Of a stretch of 62,594 nt of DNA, positions 7,444-60,692 are shown in pieces. The stretch lies in the NCBI GenBank assembly GCA_947459635.1, contig CANHEA010000005.1, forward strand, positions 1-62,594, read 5' to 3'. The position numbers were made by a program, and so were the translations under genes. How positions within the stretch are numbered: position 1 is the first letter of the stretch; every line of letters starts with the position of its first letter. The notes under the pieces were generated by a model. The model saw only the letters and a list, made by a program, of their open reading frames with translations. It searched no databases and was not told the origin of the DNA. Origin of the DNA: Flavobacteriaceae bacterium. Its GTDB lineage: Bacteria > Bacteroidota > Bacteroidia > Flavobacteriales > Flavobacteriaceae.

Positions 7444-7587
7444 TGGAGTTACTAAGTCTCTGAGCGCCTGAGTTTCTGAGACGATAATGTACATCACTAA
7501 ATTTTAGATTTCTTCTTCAAAACTAAATCTTCTCGCTACTTTAAAACGAACTTAGCAACTCAGGGACTCAGCAACTCAGCTACTTCT
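7444..7587. repeat. Imperfect inverted repeat built from CTGAG/ACTCAG units between convergent genes
   Basis: GGAGTTACTAAGTCTCTGAGCGCCTGAGTTTCTGAG versus the reverse complement of CTTAGCAACTCAGGGACTCAGCAACTCAGCTAC. Confidence 0.55.
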
Positions 7588-8074
7588 TCCCCAACTCCAC
7601 AATCTCCAAATCCTTTATCTGATCTCCATCAATCACAAAACGTAACATGGTTCGCACTTGGTGAAAACCGCTTTTCCCAGCAGCACCTGGATTCATATGC
7701 AATAATTGCAACTTCTTATCATAAATAACTTTCAAAATATGAGAGTGCCCACAGATAAAAAGTTTGGGTGGATTCTTTGTAATTTCTGCTCTAATTTCTT
7801 GATTGTATTTATCTGGATAACCGCCAATATGAGTTATCCAAACATCGACTCCTTCGCAGAAAAAACGATTGTGCAACGGAAACTCCATTCTGGCTTTGTC
7901 GTCATCAATATTGCCATAAACAGCGCGCAATGGCTTGTGTTTCTTGAGTGTATCTGTGACTTCTAAATTGCCTATGTCACCAGCATGCCAAACTTCATCG
8001 GCTTGATCAACATACTTTAAGATGACGTCATCTAGGTGACTGTGCGTGTCAGAGAGCAATAGGATTCTTTTCAT
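7580..8074 (-). CDS. YfcE/MJ0936-family metallophosphoesterase
   Basis: LLLSDTHSHLDD, WHAGDIG, VYGNIDD, THIGG, FICGHSHILKV, LHMNPGAAGKSG. Confidence 0.9.
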   Translation of the reverse strand: MKRILLLSDTHSHLDDVILKYVDQADEVWHAGDIGNLEVTDTLKKHKPLRAVYGNIDDDKARMEFPLHNRFFCEGVDVWITHIGGYPDKYNQEIRAEITKNPPKLFICGHSHILKVIYDKKLQLLHMNPGAAGKSGFHQVRTMLRFVIDGDQIKDLEIVELGKK

Positions 8075-8114: not shown

Positions 8115-8177
8115 AAGGAGCTATTCCCGCTATCCGCAGTATCTCTACGAGGATACTTGCTCCTATCGGGGCTAGGG
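8115..8177 (-). ncRNA. flavo-1-like structured repeat element, copy A
   Basis: Minus strand CCCTAGCCCCGATAGGAGCAAGTATC-C-TCgtaGA-GATACTGCGGATAGCGGGAATAGCTCCT; same flanks and architecture as copies B-D. Confidence 0.65.
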
Positions 8178-8309: not shown

Positions 8310-8323
8310 ACACGCAAACCAAC

Positions 8324-8370
8324 GATTTACGATTTACGATTTACGATTTACGATTTACGATTTACGATTT
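8324..8370. repeat. Heptanucleotide tandem repeat (GATTTAC) x 6.7
   Basis: 47 nt of perfect 7-nt periodicity. Confidence 0.97.
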
Positions 8371-8443
8371 GGAATTTGAGATTGTAAGTAATTCTAATAT
8401 CAACTCGCAACCGGCAACAACAACCATCAACAGACAACTCTTA

Positions 8444-9184
8444 ATGCGTTACTTCATTAAATTTTCATACAATGGCACAAACTACCACGGTTGGCAATCG
8501 CAACCCAATGTCGTAACGGTTCAAGAAACACTGACCAAAGCGATGGCTACGGTTTTGAATTGCCCGATAGAATTGATGGGAGCTGGAAGAACTGACACTG
8601 GTGTTCATGCCAAAACCATGTACGCACATTTCGATACAGCAACATCACTCGACACGACTAGTATGTTGCATAAATTGAACTCGTTTTTACCTAAAGATAT
8701 TGCAGTTCATGAAATAATAGCAGTAAATGAAGGAGCGCACGCTCGATTTGACGCCAAAAAAAGAACCTATGAATATCACATTCACACGCACAAGAATCCT
8801 TTTTTGACAGAATTGAGTTGGCAACACAACGCAAAACTTGATATAGATGCGATGAACGATGCAGCCAAACTACTTTTAAATCATACGGATTTTGAGTGTT
8901 TTTCGAAAGTGCATACCGACGTCAACACCTTTAATTGTACGATTACGCACGCAGCTTGGAAACAAGACCATAATTCTCTTATTTTTACCATATCTGCCGA
9001 TCGATTTTTGCGAAATATGGTTCGCGCGATTGTTGGCACATTGATTAATGTTGGTTTGCATAAAATTTCACTAGCAGAATTTCAAGCGATTCTAGATAGT
9101 AAAAACCGAAGTGAAGCTGGATTTTCGGTGCCGGCCCACGGATTATATTTGACCGAAATTGTCTATGATTACGTAAAACCCTAG
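8444..9184 (+). CDS. truA: tRNA pseudouridine(38-40) synthase TruA
   Basis: MRYFIKFSYNGTNYHGWQSQPNVVTVQ, GAGRTDTGVHA, RFLRNMVRAIVGTLINVG, AHGLYL; start placed at MRYF rather than 8306. Confidence 0.95.
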   Translation: MRYFIKFSYNGTNYHGWQSQPNVVTVQETLTKAMATVLNCPIELMGAGRTDTGVHAKTMYAHFDTATSLDTTSMLHKLNSFLPKDIAVHEIIAVNEGAHARFDAKKRTYEYHIHTHKNPFLTELSWQHNAKLDIDAMNDAAKLLLNHTDFECFSKVHTDVNTFNCTITHAAWKQDHNSLIFTISADRFLRNMVRAIVGTLINVGLHKISLAEFQAILDSKNRSEAGFSVPAHGLYLTEIVYDYVKP

Positions 9185-9260
9185 CCCTGATGGAAGCGGC
9201 ATCCTTTTGTTCTGGCGTTCAGAACAAAAGATATAGCGGACAGCAGGAATAGCTTCTGAA
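9179..9260 (+). ncRNA. flavo-1-like structured repeat element, copy B (overlaps truA stop codon)
   Basis: CCCTAGCCCTGATGGAAGCGGCATC-C-TTTTGTTCTGgcgttCAGAACAAAA-GATATAGCGGACAGCAGGAATAGCTTCT; near-identical to copy D. Confidence 0.7.
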
Positions 9261-20181: not shown

Positions 20182-20520
20182 ATGGAAAAACAAAAACTAC
20201 CCAATGCCACCGCCGTCCTCGTTTTAGGAATCTTATCAATTTTAACTTGCTGCTGTTGGGGTGTCATTGGATTAATCTTAGGCATTGTTGCCTTAGTATT
20301 AGCCAAAAAAGATTTGGCGTTGTATGTAGCAAATCCTGAACAGTATGAGGGTTATTCCAATATTAATACCGGACGAGTATTGGCTATTATCGGCATCGTT
20401 CTCAGTTCGATATATTTAGTCGCAAACGTTTATATGTACGTAGTATTGGGTGAAGAAGGCATCAAGGACTTCCAACAAAACCTCATCGAAAAAATCAAAC
20501 ACCAACAAGAAATGGAATAA
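20182..20520 (+). CDS. CCC-motif membrane protein (DUF4190-like)
   Basis: LGILSILTCCCWGVIGLILGIVALVLAKKDLALY. Confidence 0.75.
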   Translation: MEKQKLPNATAVLVLGILSILTCCCWGVIGLILGIVALVLAKKDLALYVANPEQYEGYSNINTGRVLAIIGIVLSSIYLVANVYMYVVLGEEGIKDFQQNLIEKIKHQQEME

Positions 20521-20550
20521 AAAAAACCTCCAATATGGAGGTTTTTCTTT
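20518..20550. terminator. Bidirectional terminator between CCC-motif gene and rocD
   Basis: AAAAAACCTCCAtatTGGAGGTTTTTCTTTT. Confidence 0.8.
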
Positions 20551-21830
20551 TATTTTTCAAACTGTTTCAACGTCTTAATGATAATAGAAACGCAATCCAG
20601 TAACTGTTCTTCATTCATAACCAACGGTGGGGCAAAGCGAATAATATTACCGTGTGTTGGTTTCGCTAACAATCCATTGTCACGTAGTGCCATACAAATA
20701 TTCCAAGCAGTCTCGCTTTCTTCGGTATCGTTAATCACCACTGCGTTCAATAGACCACGACCTCTAACCAAGGTAGCGATGTTACTCGTTTTGATATACT
20801 CATCTAATTTAGATCGGAATAATTTCCCTAAATTTCTAGCATTTTGTGCCAAATTTTCATCAACAACTACTTCTAGAGCCGCTACAGCTACAGCGGCAGC
20901 AACTGGATTCCCACCAAAAGTAGAACCATGTTGACCAGGTTTAATCACATTCATAATAGCATCATTTGCCAAAACTGCTGAAACTGGATAGGCACCGCCA
21001 GACAAGGCTTTTCCTAATATCAAAATATCAGGTGTAGCATAGGTAGCTTGTTTCTCGCAATGATTTTCACACGTACAATTTCCGCATACTGCCAATAAAG
21101 AACCTGTTCTAGCGATTCCTGTTTGAATTTCATCAGCAATAAACAAAACATTGTATTGATTGCACAATTCCTTTGCGCGCATCATATAGTCATCAGCTGG
21201 CGTATAAACACCTGCTTCCCCTTGAATTGGCTCCACAAGAAAACCCGCTACATTTGGATTGTTTTTTAATACTTCTTCTAAGGCTTCAATCGAATCATAC
21301 GGAATTTTGATAAATCCGTCCGTGTACGGCCCAAAATTCTTACGCGCATTTTCATCATTAGAAAAAGAAATTATCGTCGTTGTTCTTCCGTGAAAATTCC
21401 CTTCACAAACCACAATTTGCGCTTGATGTTCAGCGATACCTTTTACTTCATACGACCATTTTCTACAAAGTTTCAACGCAGTTTCCACCGCTTCAGCACC
21501 AGTATTCATTGGCAAGACTTTATCAAAACCAAAATATTTTGTCAGATATTCTTCGTACGGTCCTAATTGATCATTATAAAAAGCTCTTGACGTGAGCGTT
21601 AATGTTTGTGCTTGTCGCATCATCGCATTGACAATCTTCGGATGACAATGACCTTGATTTACAGCTGAATAAGCTGATAAAAAATCATAGTACTTCTTTC
21701 CTTCCACATCCCAAACATATACACCTTCTCCTCTACTTAAAACAACGGGCAATGGGTGATAATTGTGCGCACCGTATTTGTTCTCAAGATCAATAATTGT
21801 TTTCGAACTCATTTTTTCTAAAACTGACAT
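20550..21830 (-). CDS. rocD: Ornithine--oxo-acid transaminase with Cys-rich insertion
   Basis: [60 protein letters not shown]; insertion [13 protein letters not shown]. Confidence 0.93.
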
Positions 21831-24629: not shown

Positions 24630-24747
24630 TTAGGAGCTAATCCCGCTCTCCGCTGCAATCTTTTTTGCTTTTTTGTCACCCCGAGCGCAGTCGAGGGGCT
24701 TTTTCTTAAAAGCAAAAAAGGATTTCCGCTGCTATCGGGGCTAGGGC
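24630..24747 (-). ncRNA. flavo-1-like structured repeat element, copy C, with a nested GC-rich repeat in the apical loop
   Basis: Minus strand CCCTAGCCCCGATAGCAGCGGAAATC-C-TTTTTTGCTTTT...AAAAGCAAAAAA-GATTGCAGCGGAGAGCGGGATTAGCTCCTAA. Confidence 0.7.
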
Positions 24748-60607: not shown

Positions 60608-60692
60608 GCCCTAGCCCTGATGGTAACGGCATCCTTTTGTTCTGGCGTTCAGAACAAAAGATATAGTGAACAGCAGGAACAAGCTCCTAAAA
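60608..60692 (+). ncRNA. flavo-1-like structured repeat element, copy D
   Basis: CCCTAGCCCTGATGGTAACGGCATC-C-TTTTGTTCTGgcgttCAGAACAAAA-GATATAGTGAACAGCAGGAACAAGCTCCTAA. Confidence 0.7.

Follow-up and report, generated by a model that had tools for sequence, protein, structure and literature searches.

Flavo-1 is listed as one of the most abundant sRNA families of bacteria, and its function is not known (PMC9029176). The motif was scored as probably RNA and as not cis-regulatory (Weinberg et al, 2010; PMC2864571). In RNA-seq data from F. psychrophilum, Flavo-1 matches were sense or antisense without distinction and many lay outside transcribed regions, while some 5′ transcribed regions overlapped the element (PMC9723704). 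Among hairpin-associated transposases, TnpA-REP subclass 2.6 of Bacteroidetes is flanked by atypical structures (PMC6006769).

The window (the whole 62,594-nt stretch analysed here) comes from an assembly of 148 contigs and 2.68 Mb (G000). Four elements in it, copies A to D (Table 1), are Flavo-1 (RF01705), already a known family. Their identity, which a preliminary description had proposed, was settled by running cmscan against Rfam: copies B, C and D passed the gathering score of 42, and the shortened copy A fell below it, with E-values far beyond chance (7e-16, 1.5e-15, 3e-13 and 0.002 for B, D, C and A, respectively). With the family known, the interesting part is its reinterpretation. With modest confidence, we favour the view that Flavo-1 is a DNA-level hairpin repeat under structural constraint, subject to slow gain and loss and served by a putative trans-acting enzyme, and not a leader RNA.

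Table 1. Flavo-1 copies and associated features, in window coordinates.
Feature	Position	Strand	Description	Basis
Copy A	8115..8177	-	Shortened Flavo-1, upstream of a calcineurin-like phosphoesterase gene (7580-8074, -)	cmscan, 34.0 bits, E=0.0021
Copy B	9179..9260	+	Full Flavo-1, with a truA-like gene on one side and an ABC transporter gene on the other	cmscan, 79.2 bits
TAG of copy B (TAGCCC)	9182..9184	+	Serves also as stop codon for the truA-like pseudouridine synthase gene	Translation and Pfam PF01416
Copy C	24630..24747	-	Flavo-1 with a long apical loop	cmscan, 69.5 bits
REP-like hairpin GTCACCCCGAGCGCAGTCGAGGGGC	24675..24699	+	25 bp, within the loop of copy C	Sequence
Copy D	60608..60692	+	Full Flavo-1, main coordinates of the finding	cmscan, 78.1 bits

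Direct reading found all four copies where they had been placed, with the basal pairs that had been claimed (CCCG/CGGG in A and C, CCTG/CAGG in B and D). Other details of the preliminary description needed amendment. The apical stems are paired, with a bulged C after ATC, but copy A has lost most of its stem; the stems do differ, but there are three and not four, B and D having one in common; and the flank AGCTCCT, thought to be common to all, reads AGCTTCT at the end of copy B. In the nearest relative found (G123), the site orthologous to that of copy A holds a full-length Flavo-1, and the copy B site is also filled in several Flavobacterium species. All four window copies point toward the start of a downstream gene. 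Two further observations were made in the window: ACGATTT tandem repeats (8319-8371) lie immediately upstream of the truA-like gene and are missing there in G123 (L061), and a Phe_leader match below threshold (20517-20619, minus strand; 32.9 bits, cut-off 55) has a terminator-like hairpin at its end.

At least 145 copies were identified in G000, a count that rests on the best 150 of 792 first-look candidates being scored, and at least 142 in G123. Matches occurred in 93/101 Flavobacterium genomes, with the remaining 8/101, namely G018, G020, G033, G081, G099, G107, G108 and G110, having none, and copies per genome ranged from 0 to many. Exact-pattern matches came mostly from records titled Flavobacterium, and some further families of the order also have matches. 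By predicted genes, the sampled copies were intergenic except where they overlapped ORFs that are small and doubtful. Spread by phages or plasmids was rejected: copy D had no match in the plasmid and phage records searched, and IMG/VR gave a single match (L195), in a 30-kb predicted viral contig that is possibly a prophage region. The pattern was also seen in contigs titled Sphingobacterium thalpophilum and in Bifidobacterium breve MAGs (L362, L367, L376, L377, L379), which are probably misassigned or contaminated bins. In addition, G000 (contig 3, at ~12.7 kb) and G123 (contig 8, at ~7.1 kb) carry an identical copy with flanks ~95% identical; as the two genomes are otherwise ~80% identical, this region reflects either recent transfer or shared binning contamination.

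Anatomy was read from 41 distinct copies of one subtype, drawn from a detailed sample of 1.57 Mb (0.77 Mb of G000 and 0.80 Mb of G123). The 5′ foot, TAGCC, is invariant and is preceded by C (0.68), T (0.17), A (0.13) or G (0.01), with a weak AACGnnTGCCC upstream of the TAG; the 3′ foot, GCT(C/T)C, mostly runs on into TAAAAA. The lower stem contains three fixed pairs (C-G, C-G and G-C) and four that covary: T-A in 23 copies, C-G in 12, A-T in 5 and T·G in 1 at the first; G-C in 23, A-T in 11, T-A in 4, C-G in 1 and two mismatches at the second; G-C in 27 and A-T in 14 at the third; and C-G in 31 and T-A in 10 at the fourth. It also contains four mismatches that are kept as mismatches (A·G in 40/41, G·A in 40/41, A·G in 40/41 and G·A in 41/41); at the first of them the one exception is G·A, with the bases exchanged. 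Two of these conserved mismatches flank a freely varying n/n position, giving a GnA/GnA arrangement, which forms sheared G·A pairs in both DNA and RNA. The lower stem is topped by ATC/GAT, then by the bulged C and an apical hairpin whose sequence varies.

Covariation was scored on 38 distinct rows in which the apical region was replaced by two bases. Paired cells made up 99.1% (91.2% after shuffling), cells changed on both sides numbered 55 (15.5 after shuffling), and the covariation score was 0.265, compared with 0.098 for shuffled rows and 0.00-0.07 with the partners slid; two-sided changes fell in four pairs of the model stem. An outer CUA/UAG pair seen in some folds was discarded as lacking covariation, because its 3′ T varies and its 5′ TA does not. 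Folded as DNA, the element strand of copies D and B forms the lower stem (for D, the model's stem with z = -3.5), and the opposite strand forms mainly the apical hairpin; folding copies B, C and A as RNA also recovers the model stem. That the pairing is strongly conserved and under selection is supported, as the preliminary description had argued from four copies, both by covariation across genomic copies and by a change in place at the orthologous truA site of G000 and G123, where one pair went from C-G to T-A on both sides.

Gene context was assigned to 65 sampled copies of the two genomes by a simple longest-ORF gene prediction: 27 were antisense to the genes on both sides, 19 were sense, 14 lay between divergent genes and 5 between convergent ones. 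A consistent sense orientation upstream of genes, as expected of a cis-regulatory leader, was thus not found in these 65 copies, and a leader RNA, which the four window copies facing gene starts had suggested, was rejected on this mixed orientation, with which the F. psychrophilum transcriptome conclusion (PMC9723704) is compatible. For the scored subtype, every orientation class showed canonical pairing of 0.98-1.00 and G-A retention of 0.95-1.00. The Flavobacterium -7 box TAnnTTTG did not recur at a fixed distance upstream of Flavo-1, so a promoter of its own was rejected, as was a role as terminator, considering the separate terminator-like hairpins beside several copies (L001, L009, L017). 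Copies in either orientation are often flush with the stop codon of the upstream gene (median 6 bp in the antisense class), which either a preference for such sites or tolerance there would explain.

Gain and loss were examined at two depths. Of the 11 sites that could be compared between G000 and G123 (genes ~80% identical), 10 were filled in both and the eleventh was a remnant in G123, so turnover is slow there, which fits a retained function too; the flanks of the filled sites are intergenic and poorly alignable. Among six species at ~84-87% identity, nine sites were read by sequence. Two (L273, L278) were filled in every species examined and seven (L266, L270, L271, L272, L274, L276, L279) were not: for instance, L274 was filled in G080 only, L279 was filled in G086 and G106 and empty in G111 and G072, and at L272 only the 3′ arm was left in G086. 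No transposition event with clean boundaries or a target duplication was seen, the flanks being too diverged even between species as close as ~86% identity; empty sites were found, with flanks too diverged for placing the Flavo-1 ends.

Stem swapping, also proposed earlier, proved real and was seen even at orthologous sites. At sites other than truA that G000 and G123 share, the two copies had entirely different apical hairpins and in some cases also entirely different covarying lower pairs, and L278 held three apical stems at one shared site. Such swapping could have come about by reinsertion, by gene conversion between copies or by nested hairpins taking the place of the original one. The 12-base core (TCGACTGCGCTC) of the REP-like hairpin in copy C occurred 19 times in the 1.57 Mb, and 13 of these occurrences lay inside Flavo-1 loops, all in one orientation; three of the 13 sit in copies that our arm-pattern scan, whose sensitivity is below that of Infernal, did not pick up, so that at least three REP-bearing copies escaped it. 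Longer forms were also noted. A variant of ~140 nt stands at the same site as ordinary copies (L339, L340; G106, G015), its apical core of ~60 nt (CTTGCCAGAAAACAGCGACCAACGGAAGCTCGTTTTATGG) being similar in two species, and G000, G123 and G010 also have matches of 130-145 nt. A ~45-bp sequence (TACTTCACT...AGTTCAGTGAA...) is inserted within Flavo-1 arms (L342, L344, L064): two species have it in the 5′ arm at one site, and a third has it in the 3′ arm at truA.

The prime suspect for a partner enzyme was RAYT, because of the atypical structures that flank subclass 2.6 (PMC6006769). RAYT was found in 59/101 Flavobacterium genomes and was not found in the Flavo-1-rich genomes G004, G006, G010 and G065. 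At the loci read, RAYT genes were flanked by hairpins other than Flavo-1, and RAYT was rejected as the partner on this presence pattern and these hairpins. The CCCGATAGCGCGGATTTGCAATCCGTGCC-type repeats beside RAYT genes (L198, L200, L201 and others) have a start that resembles the Flavo-1 arm CCCGATAGCAGCGGA, by common origin or chance. An autonomous, gene-carrying form (5′ arm, gene, 3′ arm) was not found in the sequence analysed, and the one isolated 5′ arm beside a Y1 gene (L098) has the look of a copy that an IS200-type insertion interrupted. A replication-strand bias, as expected of a lagging-strand mechanism, was weak: it was suggestive in the first two complete genomes and not significant in six more, a comparison in which origins were not located, and local GC skew gave p = 0.01-0.09, the effect vanishing at the strictest threshold.

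Other explanations have to account for the same data. As filed in Rfam, Flavo-1 would be a true structured RNA, transcribed and acting as RNA by binding protein, stabilising mRNA or regulating. The strong covariation with non-canonical G-A pairs (which RNA uses well), the RNA folds of B, C and A, the orientation of all four window copies and the F. psychrophilum 5′ transcribed regions that overlap Flavo-1 are in its favour. Against these stand the 27/65 copies that are antisense to both neighbours with their structure intact, the lack of an upstream promoter at a fixed distance, the many F. psychrophilum matches outside transcribed regions (PMC9723704) and the turnover of presence among related species. 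We consider this explanation unlikely, and an RNA reading appears weak from the sequence evidence; the non-coding RNA implied by the preliminary description is not supported, in view of the mixed gene orientation, the equal preservation of antisense copies, the lack of a recurring promoter and the shifts in presence between relatives.

The slow turnover between G000 and G123 could instead point to a domesticated chromosomal site, an old repeat kept as the target of a protein that organises the chromosome or processes DNA, or else as a 3′-end hairpin of mRNAs in both orientations, as proposed for E. coli REP/BIME. The 10/11 orthologous sites that are filled in both genomes though their flanks align poorly, the compensatory change in place at truA and the positions flush with stop codons in either orientation would suit such a site. 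Considering that 8/101 genomes of the genus have no match, that many sites are lost between species of ~85% identity and that ordinary-looking terminators stand separately beside several copies (L001, L009, L017), we think it unlikely as well. Covariation might also arise without selection. Template-switching correction of quasi-palindromes is an established mechanism, and it would keep the arms of an idle repeat complementary, giving covarying arms and swapped stems. The same correction should erase the G-A mismatches too, but each of four persists in 40 or 41 of the 41 copies, one of them with its bases exchanged (A-G to G-A); this retention of specific mismatches argues against it, and we give it very little credence.

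For Flavo-1 as a DNA hairpin repeat, we would suggest that selection sees the folded single strand of a high-copy intergenic repeat. The hairpin is strand-specific, with a fixed lower stem studded with G-A mismatches, an invariant TAG on its 5′ side, GCT(C/T)C on its 3′ side and an exchangeable apical hairpin. By analogy with TnpA-REP on REP hairpins, a putative enzyme may act in trans on this folded strand, spreading or renewing copies, and sites beside stop codons may be tolerated because little harm is done there. A more specific proposal, which we offer only tentatively, is that Flavo-1 is the folded ssDNA substrate of an undescribed trans-acting recombinase, with a fixed G-A-zipper lower stem, feet of TAG and GCTCC, and a modular upper stem that copies exchange with one another or that takes other REP hairpins in a fixed orientation. 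Should Flavo-1 be a DNA hairpin repeat, repeats are inflating the annotation and counts of sRNAs in Flavobacteriia, and efforts to find its function should shift from transcripts to an enzyme or other protein recognising the folded strand; concrete bait sequences for finding such a protein are offered by the G-A pattern together with the feet.

Compared with known systems, the match to Flavo-1 RNA (RF01705, PMC2864571) is one of sequence, structure and Bacteroidota distribution, with 3/4 window copies passing the curated cut-off; the differences are copy A, below it, copy C with its REP-like loop insert, and the filing as an sRNA gene, whereas the evidence here favours a DNA-level repeat. REPs and REPINs, which are moved by TnpA-REP (RAYT), are likewise high-copy intergenic imperfect hairpins, often just past stop codons, with a short fixed foot sequence, a bulged base and mixed gene orientation. 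Flavo-1 is longer, has the foot TAG(CC) instead of GTAG/CGTC tags, and lacks a consistent RAYT partner, the RAYT genes of Flavobacterium having other flanking hairpins. The structures flanking TnpA-REP subclass 2.6 (PMC6006769) share with it their occurrence in Bacteroidetes, an unusual secondary structure and copies elsewhere in the genome, but the subclass 2.6-like genes here have CCCGATAGCGCGGATTTGCAATCCGTGCC-type repeats at their flanks and not Flavo-1 arms. MITEs with TA duplication (Correia, ERIC) are similarly non-coding, dispersed and palindromic, with TA at or near both ends; Flavo-1, in contrast, has no terminal inverted repeats (its end logos are TAGCC... and ...GCT(C/T)CTAA), and its 3′ side often has TG instead of TA.
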